Source of the DNA: Multifurca ochricompacta
Lineage: Eukaryota; Basidiomycota; Agaricomycetes; Russulales; Russulaceae
Length of the DNA: 26,801 nt
NCBI GenBank assembly: GCA_022496185.1
Contig: WTXG01000388.1
Span: 1 to 26,801, forward strand
Direction of reading: 5' to 3'
In this document: positions 3,047 through 21,129 of the stretch, piece by piece
Layout of the letters: every line of letters begins with the position of its first letter
How positions within the stretch are numbered: position 1 is the first letter of the stretch
Position numbers and translations under genes: made by a program
Notes under the pieces: generated by a model
Database searches by the model: none
What the model was told of the DNA's origin: nothing
What the model saw: the letters and a program-made list of their open reading frames with translations, nothing else

Positions 3047-4330
3047 CTAGAAACGACTCGTACCATCATCATCTTGGACCAGCTCTAGGTAGTCGTCAGC
3101 TACATTACGGTCATCCATGCTGTACGACTCCAACTCCTGCGGGCATGCGTGGGTACAGAGGAATCCATATGGGCCATGCTGACCACATGCGCGGCACAAG
3201 TCATAGACAGGGCAGTCGATCTCTTTATGCCCAGCATTGTGATGAAGACACTTGCCACACCATCCCGACGGGTTGGTGATCGTCGGGGCCACCCCTACTT
3301 GCCAGAAGATGCAGTGTCGGCTCCAATGGAGATTGCTACGGCAGTGGCGACACCATTTGCGATTGAGTGGGCAGTTCCAACTAATGTGGTACCTGCTGTC
3401 GCAACGCCAGCAAGTCTCTCCGCGGGGGTTTTCATGTAGGCGTGGCATCTCAAGTCAGCTTGGCAGCAGCGTCGGGGCCGCGCCCAAGGTTCGAGGGGGA
3501 GGGGCGCGCATAAGTGTCAGCGTACCTTTCAGCGATCGTTTGATACGCGTCTCCTTTTCCAACCTCTTCCTGATCTCAACAATCTCCTGTTCCAACTGGA
3601 ACATCCCATTCGTAAGCCTGGCCATCATCTTCGCGTGCTCTTTGTACTGCTGGTTCAATGTCCTTCGCAACGTGATGTTCTTCCTCAATCTCATGACTTC
3701 TGCCTTCAGGCGCGGGAGCCTCATATCGTTCATCACTTCGTCAATCGCAAAGGCACGGCAATCCTCCGCGGCAAGGTGGCCCAACTGTTCATCAGTCAGC
3801 GTGTGATGAAGCCGACCTGTGTACCTTTCATCCAGATACACAGGTGCCCCGTAGACCGGCCCATTCTTTTTCATACATCCCGCCACATCCATTCCTCCAT
3901 TGGTATAGTAAATGTACTTCGCGATGGCTGTGGTTCCGTCGGCCATGGTGATCTCTAAGGGGAAATACATTGAGGAATTGGGGTTGTTGGGAATGAAAGG
4001 GAACTTGGGGGCTTCATCGTCAATCTCCCGTTGAGTAGGTCGTTGGGATGGGGGTCTTCACTGTGAGTGAAATCATCGTTTGGGTTCGGGGATTGGTTCT
4101 TGATACGGGCCTCTGCAGCTTCATAATCGATGGGGGAAGAGGGACGAGTGGACGGGTGAGTAGACGGGAAGTTTTCGACAATAGTCATGGGAGAAGCAAA
4201 AGTGTCGATGGCAGCAGAGGCGGCGATGAAAGACATGATGGACTGTTCTGTGGTAGTAATTCACTGGGGGAGCATATACTGGGGAATCAAGAGAGTCTGG
4301 GACTGTTCTTTTAACTGTTTTTGGGTGCTT
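3047..4330 (-). pseudogene. ORF3 of element E: coiled-coil, four-knuckle protein, decayed
   Basis: Homologue of the intact B ORF3 (14258-15541), in the env position between pol and the polypurine tract. The C-terminal 133-codon piece (3047-3448) keeps every metal-ligand residue: CWRCDSRYHISWNC, CRHCRSNLHWSRHC, CGKCLHHNAGHKEIDC and CRACGQHGPYGFLCTHAC. Upstream, 3455-3970 holds the YTNGGMDVAGCMKK region and the coiled coil, and 3955-4236 the MSFIAASAAID region. Lesions are a TGA after the PQYMLPQ stretch, a frameshift near 4025, two compensating 1-nt shifts around 3500-3540, and TGA at 3452-3454 where B has CGA. The ATG that opens B ORF3 at the pol stop is not present here. The frame is conserved enough to infer that it was a real gene before E died. 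Confidence 0.82.
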
Positions 4331-13639: not shown

Positions 13640-14226
13640 TGTTACGTCCGGTGCGAGACGTTCTGCACGACTTGTGCGACAGCCTGTACGCGTGTGTTCA
13701 GATAAGAGGCCAATAGGACCTCTTGGAGTTTTAGGGGAGAAGTCAAAGTCAAAGGGGCTGTCCCTTAATGACGATGTTAAGTAGAAAGTGCCGAAAGCAC
13801 TGAGATGGTCGAGTCAAGAGTCCAAGGGGAAGTCCGAAAGACAAACACCGATGTATTCAATAAGTCGAGTCTGAGGTCTACAGCGTAGCTACAGCGGACT
13901 TATATGCATAACTCGACGGGCGTCTACACGATAAGGATACAGAGTCAAGTGGGCCCGAATATACGGAAGCGGACGGCGTAAAGTCTAGCTTCTGATAGGG
14001 TATTAAGTAAGTGTCCGGTCGTAAAGATAAGATGATAAGGAAGATAAGGAATCAAGCATAAGTAAACAGCGCATCAATAGGTACAAAGTGAGTCACGGGG
14101 ATGGAAGCAAGGCACGTGAGGGATCCCACGATGGGGACGTGATCGAGAAGTGCAAGGTGGGCGGCAAGGAGGGGTCGTCGTTGGGAATGTGAAAGAAAAC
14201 GGGGACGGATGGCAGAGGTCGTAACA
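13640..14226 (-). repeat. 3' LTR of element B (587 bp)
   Basis: TGTTACGACC...GTAACA on the minus strand. Apparently identical to 20543-21129. Preceded on the minus strand by the polypurine tract. Confidence 0.95.
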
Positions 14227-14228
14227 TC

Positions 14229-14240
14229 ACCCCCTCTTCT
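14229..14240 (-). other. Polypurine tract of element B
   Basis: AGAAGAGGGGGT on the minus strand, two bases upstream of the 3' LTR and about 20 nt after the ORF3 stop. Same as in E. Confidence 0.78.
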
Positions 14241-14257: not shown

Positions 14258-15541
14258 CTAGAAACGACTCGTACCGTCATCATCCTGGACCAACTCCAAG
14301 TAGTCGTCAGCTACATTACGATCGTCCATTGTATAATTCTCCTTGTCCTCGTCTTGGGGGCACTGGTGAGTACGGAGGAACCCATAGGGGCCGCGTCGAC
14401 CACACATGCGGCATAGGTCATGGACCGGGCAGTCCAGCTCTCGATGTCCTGCGTTATGGCGCAGGCACTTGCCACACCATGCGGACGGGTTGTTGATCGT
14501 TGGAGCGACTCCCAGTCGACGGAAGATGCAAAACCTGCTCCAGTGCAGGTTGCTACGACAATGCCGACACCACTTGCGATTGAGGGGGCAGTTCCAGCTG
14601 ATGTGATACTTACTATCACAACGCCAGCATGTCTCGCCCCGAGGGTTCTCGTGCATACGCGGCATCTCAAACCGATTCGGCAGCAGCACAGGGGCAGCCC
14701 CCAATGATCGTGGTGGCAGGGGTCGGGCATATGTGTCGGCGTACCTTTCCGCAATTGTCTGATACGCATCCCCCTTTTCCAGCCTCTTTCGAATCTCTAC
14801 CAACTCCTGTTCCACCTGGAACATCCCGTTCGTCAGCCTTGCCATCATCTTCGCATGCTCTTTATACTGTCTGTTAAGCGTTGTGCGCAATGTCAAGTTC
14901 TTCCGCAGCCTCATTACCTCGGCTTTGAGGCGCGGAAGTCGCATGTCACTCAACACCTCGTCGATGGCAAAAGCTCGCGAATCTTCAGCAGCTAGGTGCC
15001 CCAGCTGCTCGTCGGTCAGGGTGTGATGCAGACGACCAGTGTACCTTTCTTCCAGATATACCGGAGCCCCATAAACAGGGCCGTCCTTCTTCATGCATCC
15101 GGCCACGTCCATCCCTCCGTTGGTGTAGAAAATGTATCTGGCGATCGCAACTGTCCCGTCACCCATGGTGATCTCCAATGGGTAGTACGTGGAGGAGTTC
15201 GGGTTGTTAACGAAAAAGGGGAATTCGGGGACCTCGTCATCCGACTCCATACCTATCAGGTCATTTGGATGCGGTTCTTCACAGTGTTCAAAGTCGTTGT
15301 TAGGGTTGGGAGACTGGTTCTTGACTCGGGCTTCAGCAGCCTCATAGTCGATGGGTGAAGAGGGACGTGTAGAGGGGTGTGCGGAAGGGAAGTTCTCGAC
15401 GGCTACGGTGGGAGCGGCGAAGGCGTCAATGGCGGCGTTGGTAGCGATGAAAGACATGATAGATTCGATAGTTGTAGGACGTTGCTGTGGGAGCATGTAC
15501 TGGGGAATCGATGGGGGGTCTGGGGCAGTTCTTTTAAGCAT
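14258..15541 (-). CDS. ORF3: coiled-coil protein with four C/H zinc knuckles, after pol (427 aa)
   Basis: A third ORF in the env position. The start chosen is ATG 15541, which overlaps the pol stop (ATGCTTAA). The same frame is open upstream to at least a TTG at 15595; internal ATGs at 15496 and 15457 (MSFIA, which also exists in E with A at -3) are alternative starts. Residues ~1-120 are acidic and proline-rich. Residues 124-200 contain FYTNGGMDVAGCMKKDGPVYGAPVY. Residues ~201-257 are a charged heptad-like coiled coil. The C-terminus has four clusters: C305/C308/H313/C318 and C325/C328/H333/C338 (both CX2CX4HX4C), C356/C359/H366/C371 (CX2CX6HX4C) and C377/C380/H392/C394. The end is acidic (DDYLELVQDDD). 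No signal peptide or membrane segment, so it is not an envelope. Nucleic-acid binding is inferred from the knuckles; I do not recognise a named family. Confidence 0.85.
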   Translation of the reverse strand: MLKRTAPDPPSIPQYMLPQQRPTTIESIMSFIATNAAIDAFAAPTVAVENFPSAHPSTRPSSPIDYEAAEARVKNQSPNPNNDFEHCEEPHPNDLIGMESDDEVPEFPFFVNNPNSSTYYPLEITMGDGTVAIARYIFYTNGGMDVAGCMKKDGPVYGAPVYLEERYTGRLHHTLTDEQLGHLAAEDSRAFAIDEVLSDMRLPRLKAEVMRLRKNLTLRTTLNRQYKEHAKMMARLTNGMFQVEQELVEIRKRLEKGDAYQTIAERYADTYARPLPPRSLGAAPVLLPNRFEMPRMHENPRGETCWRCDSKYHISWNCPLNRKWCRHCRSNLHWSRFCIFRRLGVAPTINNPSAWCGKCLRHNAGHRELDCPVHDLCRMCGRRGPYGFLRTHQCPQDEDKENYTMDDRNVADDYLELVQDDDGTSRF

Positions 15542-18437
15542 TCTTGGGCGCTTCTGGATGTCGGATGTGGAACTCCGAGATAAGGTCTGGGGCAAAGATA
15601 TCCCCGGCTGGTTCCCACGAATTGTCAGAGTCTGGGAATCCCTTCCACTTGATTAGGTAGTGCAATTTGCGCCCTCGGCCTTGTCGCTTGGAGTCTAAAA
15701 CACGCTCCACTTCCCACTCTTCCTCGCCATCGATAAGGTCAGGCGGGGGTCTTGGGAAGTTTTCTCCGTGAATGGAGGTTTCCTTGTAAGGGGTTAGAAG
15801 CCTGGCATGGAAGACTGGGTGGATCTTCCATTTCGGCGGCAATTTCAATTCGTATGATACATCCGACAGCTTCCTTGTGATCTGGAAGGGTCCGTGACGT
15901 CGGGGCGCTAGTTTGGCTGAGGGGTGTGACGTGTGAATGTTCCTGCCCTCGAGCCATACCCAGTCATTGGTCCGATAGGGTGTGAACATGCTTGGTCGTG
16001 CTATCAGAAGCTGTTGCGCCTTTGCCAGATTCTCATTGGCCGATTGTCGCAATTCCTCCCATTGGTTGATCCTCTCGGTTACTGACGGGGCGTTGGCGGG
16101 CTTATCTGTCCACGTGGTGCGTGGGGTCCAGCCCATGATAAGGGAAAAAGGGGTAGCTTTTGTCGTGCCATTGGGCCACGAGTTATGGGCGAACTCCGCG
16201 GTCGATAGCCATTCTGCCCAGTCATCTTGCCTGTTGTTGCACCAGAATCGGAGGTACTGCTCGAGCCATTGGTTTGTCCGTTCCGACTGTCCATCCGTTT
16301 GGGGGTGGTATGCCGTCGAAATATTCTGTGTGATGTCCAATGTTTTGCATAAGGCCCTTGCGAACGCCGACGTGAAACGAGTATCCCTGTCAGAGATAAT
16401 CTTCTTGGGGAGTCCGTAGTGGCGGTATACGTGGTTCAGGTAGAGTTTTGCCACTCCTTCGGCTGTGATGGTTTCGTTACAGGGGATGAAGAGGGCCGCT
16501 TTGGAGCAATCATGGTCCGTAATTGTGAGGATAGTGTCAAAGCCTTGTGACTTGGGCAGCTTGACAATGAAGTCCATGGCGATGGTCTGGAATGGGGTCG
16601 ATGCGACAGGAGTGATGGGGTACATTGGTGGGATCTTTGGGTGTGTGTTCACCTTATTTGCTTGGCATGATGCACATCCTTGTACGTAGTTTTCAATGTC
16701 CTTCTTCATGTTGGGCCACCAATAGTCTCTTTTAGCCAGGGCATAGGTGTTGGCGATACCTGGATGGCCAGCTGAGGGAAGGTCATGATGAAAATGGATC
16801 ACCCCCCTCTTAATGTTGTCGCCACCGGTGACAACGAGTCGATCCCCGTCTTTCCACCAAAGACCGTCAATCTTCTTTAAGTTGTGAGCGTCGGCCCATG
16901 AAAAGCACAGGTCTTGGTTCATATTTTGGGAGACTTGCGCCCAAAGGTCCATGTCGTGGAGACTAACCACGGCCGTTTTTGCAAAGACCTCTTCCGGGAG
17001 GACGGTGATGTCATTATTATCGTCCTCTCCTGTATGCATATCCGGTCTTCGTGATAAGGCATCTGCTCTGGCGTTCTGGCTTCCTGCAATGTGTTTCAAC
17101 GTAAAGTTATATTCCTCCAACTCCAAGACCTCTCGTGCCACGCGTCGACTGATTTTGTGGGGCTCTTTCCAATATAATAGATTGGAATGGTCCGTGTGGA
17201 CGATGGTCTTGTGCGGGGTTCCTGCCAGATAGGGTCGCCAGTGTCGCAATGCCTTGACGATGGCTAAGAGCTCTCTGTCCCAGATGTCATAATTTCTTTC
17301 GGCTGAGGAGAAGGTTTCCGAGTAGTATGCCACTGGATGAAGTACTTGCGTGGCGTCTCTCTGATATAACACTGCCCCGTTCGCGAAGTGAGAGGCGTCC
17401 ACCTCTAGTTCAAAGGGGCGGCTTAGATCTGGCTGGATAAGTACTGGTTCTGACCCAACAAGATCCCTAATCTGCTCAAATGCTTGCTGTTGTGGTGCAC
17501 CCCAATGCCATAGTACGTCCTTTTTCAGTAGGTCATTCAGTGGCCGCGCTATGCCTGAAAATCCCTTGACAAATCGTCGGTAGAAGTTGCAGAATCCGAT
17601 GAACGACCGGACATCTTTGACGCAAGTCGGCACTGGCCATTCTCGAATCCCTTGTACTTTAATGGGATCCATACGCACTCGTCCTCCTTCCAAAATGACC
17701 CCTAGGTACTCAACACTCCGTTGTTCAAAGGAACATTTGGCCGGTTTGAGATACAGGTCATGTTCTCGTAGTATGTCCAGTACCTGGTGCACTCGGTCTC
17801 GATGGTGGTCTAAGTTGTCTGAGGTAGCGACCAGGATGTCGTCCATGTAGACCACTACTTCTCCAGTGAGAATAAGATCGCGGAAAATGTGGTTCATCAT
17901 CGACTGGAATGTTGCCGGCGAATTTGTGAGACCAAAGAACATGACATTGGGTTCGAATAACCCTTGGTTCGTCTTGAACGCTGCCTTGCACTGGTCTCCT
18001 TCCCTGATTCTAACGTTGTTGTAGCCCCATCGCACGTCCATCTTTGAGAAGAGGGATTTATCCCTCATAGTGTCGATAAGTTCAGAGATGAGCGGCAGGG
18101 GGTAGGCATTTTTCACGGTATACGCATTAAGTCGTCGATAATCCTGGACCGGCCGCAGCTTACCATCCTTCTTCTTGATGAAGAAGAAGGGCGAGGCGTA
18201 CTGCGACTTGGAAGGGCGAATATAACCTTTTGCCAAATGTTCTTCGAGGAATTCCGTCAATGCTACCTGCTCTGACTGGGACAGTGGGTAGATTTTACAA
18301 TCTATGGCAGTTGGTGTATCCGGGAGTAGGTCTATAGCATGGTCCCATGGTCTGGAGGGCGGAAAACGCTGGGATTCCTCCTCGGAAAATACCTTCCAAT
18401 GCCGATGGTAGGTCTGCGGTACTATGTCGCTGTAGGT
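15534..18437 (-). CDS. pol: Pol of element B: RT, RNase H, integrase, chromodomain
   Basis: Open from the frameshift at 18437-18441 to TAA at 15534-15536. Numbering from codon 18260: RT with FFFIKKKDGKLRPVQDY (26-41), FFGLTNSP (108-115) and catalytic YMDD (138-141). RNase H with acidic residues D288, E330, D357 and the ADALSR aspartate D400. Integrase with an HHCC module (histidines in HHDLPSAGHPG, cysteines C529 and C532) and a D563-D624-E660 core, giving the D,D35E spacing. A GPF-type module at ~790. A chromodomain at ~848-900 (EEWEVERVLDSK, LIKWKGFPDSDNSWEP), which in known chromoviruses directs integration to marked heterochromatin. No stop interrupts it. Expected to be made as Gag-Pol by -1 frameshifting, then cut by the element's protease. 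Confidence 0.93.
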   Translation of the reverse strand, partial: TYSDIVPQTYHRHWKVFSEEESQRFPPSRPWDHAIDLLPDTPTAIDCKIYPLSQSEQVALTEFLEEHLAKGYIRPSKSQYASPFFFIKKKDGKLRPVQDYRRLNAYTVKNAYPLPLISELIDTMRDKSLFSKMDVRWGYNNVRIREGDQCKAAFKTNQGLFEPNVMFFGLTNSPATFQSMMNHIFRDLILTGEVVVYMDDILVATSDNLDHHRDRVHQVLDILREHDLYLKPAKCSFEQRSVEYLGVILEGGRVRMDPIKVQGIREWPVPTCVKDVRSFIGFCNFYRRFVKGFSGIARPLNDLLKKDVLWHWGAPQQQAFEQIRDLVGSEPVLIQPDLSRPFELEVDASHFANGAVLYQRDATQVLHPVAYYSETFSSAERNYDIWDRELLAIVKALRHWRPYLAGTPHKTIVHTDHSNLLYWKEPHKISRRVAREVLELEEYNFTLKHIAGSQNARADALSRRPDMHTGEDDNNDITVLPEEVFAKTAVVSLHDMDLWAQVSQNMNQDLCFSWADAHNLKKIDGLWWKDGDRLVVTGGDNIKRGVIHFHHDLPSAGHPGIANTYALAKRDYWWPNMKKDIENYVQGCASCQANKVNTHPKIPPMYPITPVASTPFQTIAMDFIVKLPKSQGFDTILTITDHDCSKAALFIPCNETITAEGVAKLYLNHVYRHYGLPKKIISDRDTRFTSAFARALCKTLDITQNISTAYHPQTDGQSERTNQWLEQYLRFWCNNRQDDWAEWLSTAEFAHNSWPNGTTKATPFSLIMGWTPRTTWTDKPANAPSVTERINQWEELRQSANENLAKAQQLLIARPSMFTPYRTNDWVWLEGRNIHTSHPSAKLAPRRHGPFQITRKLSDVSYELKLPPKWKIHPVFHARLLTPYKETSIHGENFPRPPPDLIDGEEEWEVERVLDSKRQGRGRKLHYLIKWKGFPDSDNSWEPAGDIFAPDLISEFHIRHPEAPKNA

Positions 18438-19015
18438 TTTTCTATCTGCCCCTGTATCGCCTTTTGAGCTAGTTCTGATGCTTTGGTGACATAGCAGTAG
18501 CCTGGGTCTTCTTCCTCTGTACTGGTAGCCTTTATTGCTGGATGTCTGACTGCGTAATCATATCCCATCGACGTGATGATGGTGGGATATGATTCCTTGT
18601 CCATTGTCGCATCTGCCCAATTAATCTTTGGTTCGAACGCAGCGAGCCACGGGTATCCAAGAATGAGGTCTTCGTCTCCCAGATCCGTGATTAGGAAGCG
18701 AATGTTTTTTGTAGCCTCCCCAACCTGGACCTTCAGATCTGTGTAATGAGTGATCTTTCCTGCACGATTGGCCGTCCCATCAATGTTCCAAATGTTCTTC
18801 TCCTGGGGAAGTGCCAGCCGTCCCAAACCCATTGTTCTAAGTAGTCGCGGGTGAATAAAATTATCTGTGGCTCCTGAGTCCACTAAGATGTCTCGATCGG
18901 CCGTCCTCTGTGTAGTTTCAAAATGAACTGGTATTTTCAACGATTTGAATCGACTAGCATACACAGAGGTAACATGGAGTGCTCGCGCCCAGGCCGATGG
19001 GTTTGAGCCTAACAA
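18422..19015 (-). CDS. pol: Pol of element B, 5' part: aspartic protease, ending at a 1-nt frameshift
   Basis: The frame is -1 relative to gag and begins in the gag tail. TTG 19015 is only the first start-like codon, not a likely initiator. It reads LLGSNPSAWARALHVTSVYASRF, then DILVDSGATDNF with catalytic DSGA at residues 46-49 and the flap-like ILGYPWLAAFEPKINW. Five A (18441-18437) follow GQIE, where D and E indicate one more base, so the frame runs to a false stop at 18422 instead of joining RT. Either a true 1-nt deletion or a sequencing error; other copies are in frame here, so it is not a programmed site. Confidence 0.9.
   Translation of the reverse strand: MLGSNPSAWARALHVTSVYASRFKSLKIPVHFETTQRTADRDILVDSGATDNFIHPRLLRTMGLGRLALPQEKNIWNIDGTANRAGKITHYTDLKVQVGEATKNIRFLITDLGDEDLILGYPWLAAFEPKINWADATMDKESYPTIITSMGYDYAVRHPAIKATSTEEEDPGYCYVTKASELAQKAIQGQIEKPTAT
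18437..18441 (-). other. Single-base deletion in pol of element B
   Basis: A run of five A on the minus strand between protease and RT. Aligning with C (GAG AAG ACT TAC) shows one base missing. Downstream codons (TAC AGC GAC ATA GTA, then HRHWKVF) return to the RT frame at once. Confidence 0.8.
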
Positions 19016-19032
19016 AAATCCTTTTTCGCAAA
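19009..19032 (-). promoter_or_regulatory. Gag-pol -1 frameshift region
   Basis: The gag tail reads GCG AAA AAG GAT TTT TGT TAG, and pol is open in the -1 frame through GAA AAA GGA TTT TTG TTA GGC. The A5-GG-A-T5-G block just before the gag stop is kept, apart from small changes in the A-run, in C (10352-10357 area), D (~23485-23497) and E (~7774-7785). The T-run (T TTT before the stop codon) and the A-run are candidate slip sites. No downstream structure was assessed. Confidence 0.6.
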
Positions 19033-20523
19033 CGCCTTCTCTACTAGTAGGGCGCGCACTTCCTCACTTTCCTTCATCATATTAGCCCATATATCCTGAG
19101 CCTTTTCTTCTTTGGATCGCTTGTCTACCGTCGGTGGGTTATTCTGCACAGGATGTTCTGGCGCCATAGTGGCGGCAGCGACTCGTGCTCCCTTCTTGGG
19201 GCAGTCTCGAGACATGTGCCCCAATGCCCTGCAACGGAAACAACGTCCTTCTTTCATGAGGGCTTGTCGCTCATCCTCCGTAAGCGTTGCTCGAGCTCGG
19301 ACTCGATCTGCGGAGGTGTCCATAGCGTTTGGGTCCCGCTGGGTGTGATGGGCAGGCTTGACTCCGAAGGCAGCCTTCCACTGATCTCTGGTCTTTCCCT
19401 TTTTTGTATCGACTCCAAATCGTGTTTGGAAGTCCAAGTAATCTTGTTGTTGCCGTCGGGCGGCGTCGACCCAGGTGTCCCAATCATGGGGATGATGGAA
19501 CTGTATGATGTTTTTGACCAGGGGGTTGGGTAGTCCCTGGGAGAAGAGGTCCAGCGTGGCCTCCTCATCTGTGTCGTAGCCGGCTCTGTTGGCTAAACTT
19601 CTGAACTTGGCAACGTATGCGTCAAGTTCTCCCTTTTCCATCTTAAGGGACTTTAGTTCCCGGGCTGCTTTCTGCTTGGCCTGCCCGTCTGTGAAGGCCT
19701 CCTTGAACCTCTCTGCTATGGTCTCCCAAAGACCCTCGCTCGTGGTCCTGCGCCCACTCTCAACCTGCTCGTTCAGCCACTCCAACTGCTCCATTGTCCA
19801 GTCATCTACTGCATCCCCTCGGATCAGAGACAGAAACAGATTGGCCCTTTGGAATGGGTTAACAATCTGCGGAACATCATGATTGAAGTTCTTGAAGGTG
19901 GTGAACTCCAACATGAACTTCTTGCTCTGCGAGCGATCCCCAGAGAATGTTTGGGGTAAAACTCCAGACAGACGTCCCGAGGGGGGGGGAATGTTTGGCG
20001 GTGGTGCCACGGGGGCTGGTGGGGCAGGGTCTGGAAGTTGGGCGGCAATCGTCGACATGTTCTGATAGAATGGGGTTACTGTGTTGGTGGATTGTATCGA
20101 TATCTGTGGAGTTGTCAAGGCAGGGGCTCTGATCGTGACAACTTCGGGTGCAACCGGAAACGTAGTCGCTGCTAATGCCGGTGCTTCTTCTTCGCTAGGG
20201 TCTTCTACGTACTCCTCAGGTTCGGAGTCCGTGACAATGGCCGGAGGGTTTTCTCTCCACGGGCCTAGTCCAAATTCGGGTGGGGCAGGTCTGGTTGTGA
20301 CCCAAGAGTTTCGACTGTCCGAGTATCGGATACAATACCAAACTCTTTTCTCGTCGTCGTATTCTACTGGTTGGTATCTTCCGTCGTGATAGACGTAGTA
20401 TCCAAACTCGGACTCAAAGTCTTTCCAGGCGGCAGAGCCAAGTACTTGTTGTGAAAGATTATTCTCGTCTCTGCGCTCGATGAGCTCTTCTCGGAAGAGG
20501 GTCTGACTGCGGCTGGAAGCCAC
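19009..20523 (-). CDS. gag: Gag of element B (504 codons, no ATG at the head)
   Basis: The frame opens shortly after the PBS; the first start-like codon is GTG 20523 in ACAGTGG context (A at -3, G at +4). The first ATG in any frame after the presumed RNA start is Met156 (20056-20058). Residues ~33-80 are a W/Y-rich conserved region (WKDFESEFGYYVYHDGRY), 100-190 acidic then proline-rich. About 205-345 is a retrotransposon Gag capsid-like domain (NLFLSLIRGDAVDDW to LPNPLVKNII). A CCHC zinc knuckle at C428/C431/H436/C441 (CFRCRALGHMSRDC) binds the RNA in related Gags. It ends KKDFC then TAG, overlapping pol. Product: structural protein of the cytoplasmic particle. Either a GTG-initiated full form or an ATG-initiated short form (349 aa) is possible. 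Confidence 0.9.
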   Translation of the reverse strand: MASSRSQTLFREELIERRDENNLSQQVLGSAAWKDFESEFGYYVYHDGRYQPVEYDDEKRVWYCIRYSDSRNSWVTTRPAPPEFGLGPWRENPPAIVTDSEPEEYVEDPSEEEAPALAATTFPVAPEVVTIRAPALTTPQISIQSTNTVTPFYQNMSTIAAQLPDPAPPAPVAPPPNIPPPSGRLSGVLPQTFSGDRSQSKKFMLEFTTFKNFNHDVPQIVNPFQRANLFLSLIRGDAVDDWTMEQLEWLNEQVESGRRTTSEGLWETIAERFKEAFTDGQAKQKAARELKSLKMEKGELDAYVAKFRSLANRAGYDTDEEATLDLFSQGLPNPLVKNIIQFHHPHDWDTWVDAARRQQQDYLDFQTRFGVDTKKGKTRDQWKAAFGVKPAHHTQRDPNAMDTSADRVRARATLTEDERQALMKEGRCFRCRALGHMSRDCPKKGARVAAATMAPEHPVQNNPPTVDKRSKEEKAQDIWANMMKESEEVRALLVEKAFAKKDFC

Positions 20524-20529
20524 TGTGAG

Positions 20530-20540
20530 AGACTCGACTT
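20530..20540 (-). other. Primer-binding site of B, self-priming type
   Basis: AAGTCGAGTCT on the minus strand, two bases inside the 5' LTR. Perfect 11-nt complement of 20765-20775 in the same LTR. Confidence 0.8.
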
Positions 20541-20764
20541 GATGTTACGTCCGGTGCGAGACGTTCTGCACGACTTGTGCGACAGCCTGTACGCGTGTGT
20601 TCAGATAAGAGGCCAATAGGACCTCTTGGAGTTTTAGGGGAGAAGTCAAAGTCAAAGGGGCTGTCCCTTAATGACGATGTTAAGTAGAAAGTGCCGAAAG
20701 CACTGAGATGGTCGAGTCAAGAGTCCAAGGGGAAGTCCGAAAGACAAACACCGATGTATTCAAT

Positions 20765-20809
20765 AAGTCGAGTCTGAGGTCTACAGCGTAGCTACAGCGG
20801 ACTTATATG
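20765..20809 (-). promoter_or_regulatory. LTR promoter of B: TATA box and presumed transcript start
   Basis: CATATAA on the minus strand (20809 down to 20803), with AGACTCGACTT starting at 20775, 34 nt downstream, the same spacing as in C, E and G. From 20775 to 20059 there is no ATG in any frame. Confidence 0.7.
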
Positions 20810-20928
20810 CATAACTCGACGGGCGTCTACACGATAAGGATACAGAGTCAAGTGGGCCCGAATATACGGAAGCGGACGGCGTAAAGTCTAGCTTCTGATA
20901 GGGTATTAAGTAAGTGTCCGGTCGTAAA

Positions 20929-20951
20929 GATAAGATGATAAGGAAGATAAG
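20929..20951 (-). promoter_or_regulatory. Triple GATAAG cluster in U3 of B
   Basis: GATAAG on the plus strand (CTTATC in element sense) at 20929-20934, 20937-20942 and 20946-20951, about 150-175 nt upstream of the presumed start. Every LTR of this group has a similar cluster (E: 2826-2831, 2834-2839, 2841-2846). Fungal GATA factors bind such sites; use here is inferred. Confidence 0.45.
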
Positions 20952-21129
20952 GAATCAAGCATAAGTAAACAGCGCATCAATAGGTACAAAGTGAGTCACG
21001 GGGATGGAAGCAAGGCACGTGAGGGATCCCACGATGGGGACGTGATCGAGAAGTGCAAGGTGGGCGGCAAGGAGGGGTCGTCGTTGGGAATGTGAAAGAA
21101 AACGGGGACGGATGGCAGAGGTCGTAACA

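Follow-up and report, generated by a model that had tools for sequence, protein, structure and literature searches.

Does the open reading frame (ORF) that follows pol in a Ty3 retrotransposon represent a third gene, and if so, what could its product do? The question is raised by a 26,801-nucleotide stretch of Multifurca ochricompacta DNA (contig WTXG01000388.1, our C321; hereafter the window, meaning the whole stretch analysed), which is a nest of Ty3 elements in a host genome of 53.8 Mb in 605 contigs. One of these, element B, is a chromodomain Ty3 retrotransposon (chromovirus): its Pol carries, in the order of the Pfam matches, reverse transcriptase (RT), RNase H and integrase, followed by Chromo (residues 785-834, E 9.6e-15). 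A sequence-only reading had placed a 427-codon ORF (ORF3) with four zinc knuckles behind its pol gene, and had suggested a second nucleic-acid-binding factor. We find that ORF3 is indeed a gene, the third of the element, on which strong purifying selection acts. We propose, with some hesitation, that it is read from a spliced mRNA of its own and that its product is an oligomeric cofactor that binds nucleic acid in the replication of the element. All window coordinates given below refer to the minus strand.

ORF3 is a third gene of element B

An ORF of 427 codons is present at 14258-15541, between the pol stop (TAA, 15536-15534) and the polypurine tract (14240-14227). The pattern of the pol/ORF3 junction occurs 489 times exactly in the genome, against a single occurrence of the reversed control. 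Thirty copies (L001-L030), the best of 98 scored rows from 2238 candidates, were picked by ORF3 similarity and aligned. The conserved start of ORF3 is the ATG at 15496, which corresponds to methionine 16 of the earlier translation and lies 15 codons later than first read; from there the frame runs over 412 codons to the stop (14258-15496), and it is uninterrupted over this length in 20 of the 30 copies. Thus the frame that had been described stands, and its first 15 codons do not. These codons are non-coding, because the spacer from the pol stop to the ATG (15497-15533) is evenly spread over the three frames (11, 10 and 9 copies; 38-44 nt in length, counted from TTAAAA) and has in-frame stops in several copies. 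The same observations exclude a frameshifted Pol-ORF3 fusion and translation of the first 15 codons. Only some copies have an ATG that overlaps the pol stop.

Medians of the ratio of nonsynonymous to synonymous substitution rates (dN/dS) were calculated excluding gapped codons and pairs that were saturated or had a dS below 0.02. Over the 30 copies, ORF3 showed a median dS of 1.02, a dN of 0.034 and a dN/dS of 0.034, whereas the same alignment read in the other two frames gave median ratios of 2.2 and 3.0. Over most of ORF3, the mean minor-base fraction was 20-30% at third positions and 0.1-3.9% at second positions. Since choosing copies by ORF3 score lowers dN, L053 and L054, which had been fetched through pol, served as a control: dN/dS was 0.044 and 0.042 between B and each of them, and 0.048 between the two. 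Pairs that include one of the decayed copies (that of element A in the window, or L055) had ratios of 0.037-0.059 if dS was defined; two saturated pairs had no value. The comparison of many copies that the sequence-only reading had proposed as a check thus yielded a ratio far from 1. A chance ORF or a passenger is excluded by dN/dS and the wrong-frame control. We conclude that: i) B has a genuine third gene in ORF3, and ii) this gene is under strong purifying selection.

Past methionine 16, 11 in-frame stops were observed in nine of the 30 copies, and all of them are TGA, which may fit C-to-T decay of CGA codons.

The ORF3 protein and its relatives

The N-terminal part of the protein is acidic (isoelectric point (pI) 4.2). 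It is followed by a part predicted to be beta, a helical part that is basic (pI 9.8), the Cys/His clusters and an acidic end. The four clusters described from the sequence were found at residues 290-379 (14360-14629). Two have the canonical CX2CX4HX4C spacing, and the following two, CX2CX6HX4C and CX2CX11HXC, are longer, so that the spacing of PF00098 is present in two of the four. None of the 16 Cys and His ligands varies between the 20 copies, out of 30 examined, that are uninterrupted. From the cluster pattern we infer that ORF3 binds zinc and nucleic acid. Residues 188-256 (14729-14935) form a likely helix, predicted with low confidence by AlphaFold from the single sequence; the coiled coil that had been announced for this part is only possible, as 13 of the 22 a/d positions are hydrophobic in the best heptad register. 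No transmembrane stretch was detected in ORF3 (the top 19-residue Kyte-Doolittle mean is 1.33), as the sequence-only reading had stated in calling the ORF non-envelope, and an envelope identity was rejected for this lack of a hydrophobic stretch. Close to the C-terminus lies the acidic motif LELVQDDD (14276-14299), which we take to resemble a SUMO-interacting motif.

Searches for a captured host gene or a known retroelement domain in Pfam, the PDB and the protein databases returned no significant match, in agreement with the statement that no named family could be recognised. No Pfam family scored above the cut-off in 20 ORF3 copies or in two of the sister ORFs described below, and there were weak coiled-coil-type matches only. 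Among about 5.8 billion proteins no match to ORF3 was found, either with the single sequence or with a 20-row profile. In the same proteins, the pol control gave 7195 matches out of 7972 scored candidates, the best at 63% identity; this database is possibly poor in fungi, and the control shows that related elements are represented there, which does not mean that gene calling captured their third ORFs. Viral contigs contained no match for ORF3 or for one sister ORF, and no description of the ORF3 protein was found in the open-licence literature.

Relatives were found in the host genome itself. Six other elements, taken from the 150 best SH3_Tf2-1 matches, were read past pol. L053, L054 and the decayed L055 are of B's kind, and L051 and L056, which are distant (39-45% in the region examined), showed no ORF3 match. 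The sixth, L052 (58%), has a third ORF of its own, of 397 codons (L052:516-1706), and a long pyrimidine tract between pol and this ORF. The L052 ORF matched 107 genome rows at 43-100% identity, of which 49 are stop-free and some are fragments. In four examples (C568, C583, C4 and C147) the third ORF lies 330-375 nt past the SH3 match. Two further sister ORFs, in L057 and L058, were read, and a profile was built from the three. It matched ORF3 residues 88-263 (14708-15235) with 26.6 bits in hmmsearch, compared with a maximum of 9.6 among 2000 shuffled ORF3s, 0.5 for pol and -2.4 for gag; hhalign aligned the sister ORFs with ORF3 over 169 columns (91.6%, E 8.4e-7). None of the three sister ORFs has knuckles, and all carry an Arg-rich tail where B has its clusters. 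Two of them end like B: L057 has IDLTQDD and L058 has VDLTQDDD, and L052 is without a clear counterpart.

These comparisons suggest that ORF3 seems to predate the split of B and its sister families, and that the knuckles look like a branch-specific module, either gained in B's branch or retained only there. The clusters that had been described are real; they do not define the gene, because third ORFs with the same core and no knuckles occupy the same place in the sister families.

Expression and role of ORF3

How could an ORF behind pol be translated? An AG at 15500-15501, just 5' of TAC-ATG, is present in all 30 copies, and it precedes 434 of the 435 exact genome copies of the ORF3 start sequence. 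The nine bases upstream of the ATG are CCCCAGTAC across the 30 copies, save two single changes, and in each of the three sister ORFs the aligned methionine is closely preceded by CCCAG or CCAAG. Taken together, the random-frame spacer, the kept CCCCAGTAC, the near-invariant AG and the sister CCCAG or CCAAG make this AG look like a 3' splice site. A weak candidate for the 5' splice site, GTACGT, lies in the leader at 20207-20212. The 5' leader could be aligned in 18 of the 24 sequences searched, two of them (L042 and L049) coming from a neighbouring element on the other strand. A GTACTT in the leader was dropped as donor, the GT being missing in several copies.

The predicted route is then as follows. 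Gag and Gag-Pol would be made from the full-length RNA, and a donor in the 5' leader would be joined to the AG at 15501-15500, giving ORF3 a spliced mRNA of its own. The ORF3 ATG would become the first ATG of this message, since ATGs are almost absent from the leader: seven of the 18 leaders contain none, and base composition alone predicts about 9.5.

As to the product, binding of the element's RNA or cDNA is suggested by a common core that carries clusters in one case and an Arg-rich tail in the other, beside a possible oligomerising helix. ORF3 would oligomerise through its core and helix, and the four clusters would bind the RNA or cDNA. The protein could thereby be a second factor of the nucleocapsid kind, serving packaging, reverse transcription by self-priming or cDNA handling, and its acidic C-terminal motif may dock on a host partner, possibly SUMO.

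The self-primed step is itself likely in B. The primer site AAGTCGAGTCT (20530-20540) is complementary to the RNA start AGACTCGACTT (20765-20775), whose position was predicted from the TATA box. The pairing is complete (11 of 11 positions) in 14 of the 18 copies and lacks one position (10 of 11) in the other four, and paired changes occur in four copies. The RNA of B is therefore the likely primer of its own reverse transcription, in the manner of Tf1, and an annealing factor would serve that step.

The rate of change bears on the role as well. In the same 30 copies, dN/dS was 0.066 for the pol tail (the last 450 codons), and gag gave 0.025 (18 copies, 64 unsaturated pairs). That ORF3 evolves at a rate near that of gag points to a component of the replication machinery and away from an arms race with silencing; the option of a defence against host silencing, which had been listed among the possible functions, is disfavoured by the low ratio.

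Several observations weigh against the spliced, nucleocapsid-like cofactor. The donor candidate is not universal (GTACGT in 14 of the 18 leaders, GTACAT in two, GTATGT in one and no GT in one), and although it is the sole conserved GTRNGT in the leader, about one is expected by chance in such a length. No spliced retrocopies were found in the genome by the patterns tried. In the sister ORFs the frame 5' of the AG looks coding, so that the likeness of CCCAG may partly be ancestral coding sequence, and the expectation for leader ATGs disregards the coding look of the leader. Gag already has its own knuckle and the sister ORFs manage without any. The Pfam family zf-CCHC (PF00098), which does match the one knuckle correctly attributed to Gag from the sequence, matched none of 20 ORF3 members at E values up to 1. 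The profile search of the PDB with ORF3 gave nothing significant (retroviral nucleocapsid E 0.024, malaria P48/45 0.21, Lin28 0.44). Finally, the AlphaFold model is poor, with a mean predicted local distance difference test score (pLDDT) of 40 and a helix at residues 188-240 in blocks of 48-70, and is unusable.

An alternative that we consider doubtful is that ORF3 is directed at the host, either bringing the cDNA or the integration complex to chromatin through its SUMO-like end, or blunting silencing by binding small RNAs. The acidic ends of B and two sister ORFs resemble the consensus of a SUMO-interacting motif, and ORF3 is separate from Gag-Pol, as would suit such a factor. However, the candidate motif is short and has no clear equivalent in L052, and a dN/dS about that of gag and below that of pol is unlike what a factor in an arms race would be expected to show.

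It is quite unlikely that the same cofactor is made without splicing, either through reinitiation downstream of the pol stop or because the pol tail contains a promoter. The short distance of the ORF3 ATG from TTAAAA, the heptamer TTAAAAG around the pol stop TAA (15531-15537), kept in 29 of the 30 copies, and the pyrimidine tract ahead of the L052 ORF would accord with such a route. On the other hand, six of the 30 copies have an ATG inside the spacer, ahead of the ORF3 start, neither reinitiation nor an internal promoter needs an invariant AG before TAC-ATG, and Pol lies behind a frame change, so that few ribosomes would be expected at its stop. A nucleocapsid-like cofactor with its own mRNA is favoured over both the host-directed factor and the unspliced route because of the gag-like rate, the clusters or Arg-rich tail, and the self-priming.

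Capture from the host, or decay of an envelope gene, is a very improbable origin of ORF3: third ORFs past pol are frequently env-like or captured, according to two reports (PMC5408684, PMC11963269), but ORF3 has neither a transmembrane stretch nor a Pfam family above the cut-off, and matched no protein in the database in which pol found thousands. The genome searches cover the best-scoring candidates, so that a diverged host copy could escape them.

Element B and comparable systems

The long terminal repeats (LTRs) of B, at 13640-14226 (3') and 20543-21129 (5'), are each 587 bp long with 0 differences between them, and the element is flanked by the 5-bp target duplication ATATG; because of this identity and the duplication, the insertion is likely recent. 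The polypurine tract AGAAGAGGGGGTGA (14227-14240) adjoins the 3' LTR. From its first ATG, gag is open over 349 codons (19009-20058; Pfam Retrotrans_gag and zf-CCHC). The frame map places the pol frame with the protease part at 18422-19063 and the open frame that extends from ahead of RT as far as the chromodomain at 15534-18557 (Pfam RVT_1, RNase H, integrase, SH3_Tf2-1 and Chromo). A single frameshift in pol lies between protease and RT, and ORF3 is intact. In the gag/pol overlap (19009-19063) pol is in the -1 frame, and no standard slippery heptamer was seen there by eye. The ORF3 of element A is broken into two ORF pieces (3047-3970), with two in-frame stops and seven gapped codons relative to B. 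Neither Rfam nor a tRNA scan gave a match in the window.

Upstream of the gag ATG, 155 codons in the gag frame (20059-20523) are under purifying selection, with a dN/dS of 0.165 over the 18 copies. This leader frame opens just past the primer site at a GTG that all 18 copies have kept, with an A at -3 and a G at +4. A longer Gag with a non-ATG start codon is predicted, comparable to the CUG-started form of murine leukaemia virus Gag. Silent variation is lower in this leader than in gag (pooled proportion of silent differences, pS, 0.32 versus 0.72), a difference that points to a signal in the RNA itself, for instance for packaging.

Like Tf1-type self-priming elements, B has an 11-nt primer site complementary to the predicted RNA start, together with SH3_Tf2-1 and chromodomain matches; unlike them, it keeps gag and pol in separate frames and has a third ORF. 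With retroviral nucleocapsid and the ORF1 protein of long interspersed nuclear elements, ORF3 shares a possible coiled coil and CX2CX4HX4C clusters, but it shows no significant sequence match to them and occupies its own frame after pol.

Third ORFs comparable to that of B are described in three published sources. An additional ORF of unassigned function has been reported in fungal chromoviruses (PMC2864245); these are chromodomain Ty3 elements of fungi with an extra ORF as in B, and may be the same thing. Bdelloid rotifer LTR elements express non-env ORF3s from spliced messages (PMC5408684). Like that of B, these lie after pol; they encode GDSL esterases or DEDDy exonucleases, whereas ORF3 of B has no such Pfam match. 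Plant Retand elements carry TRP28 ORFs, predicted to bind DNA, between pol and the 3' LTR as in B; they are antisense and have another domain, whereas ORF3 is in sense orientation (PMC11963269). Non-env third ORFs are thus already known.

We regard as unlikely, at this level of detail, a fuller picture in which a lineage of fungal chromoviruses has fixed a third gene, spliced as env is, for a replication protein that combines an old core with a second, four-knuckle nucleocapsid added in one branch (an Arg-rich tail in others) and a SUMO-docking end that would pass self-primed cDNA to chromatin.

The third ORFs of LTR elements are usually taken as env genes or passengers, and we know of no model of Ty3 replication that includes a protein of this kind. 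The dN/dS of ORF3 near that of gag, the number of exact junctions in the genome and the wider set of sister ORFs indicate that a Ty3 lineage may need such a protein. Because their common core is joined to clusters in B's branch and to an Arg-rich tail elsewhere, these families amount to a natural experiment on what the factor requires.
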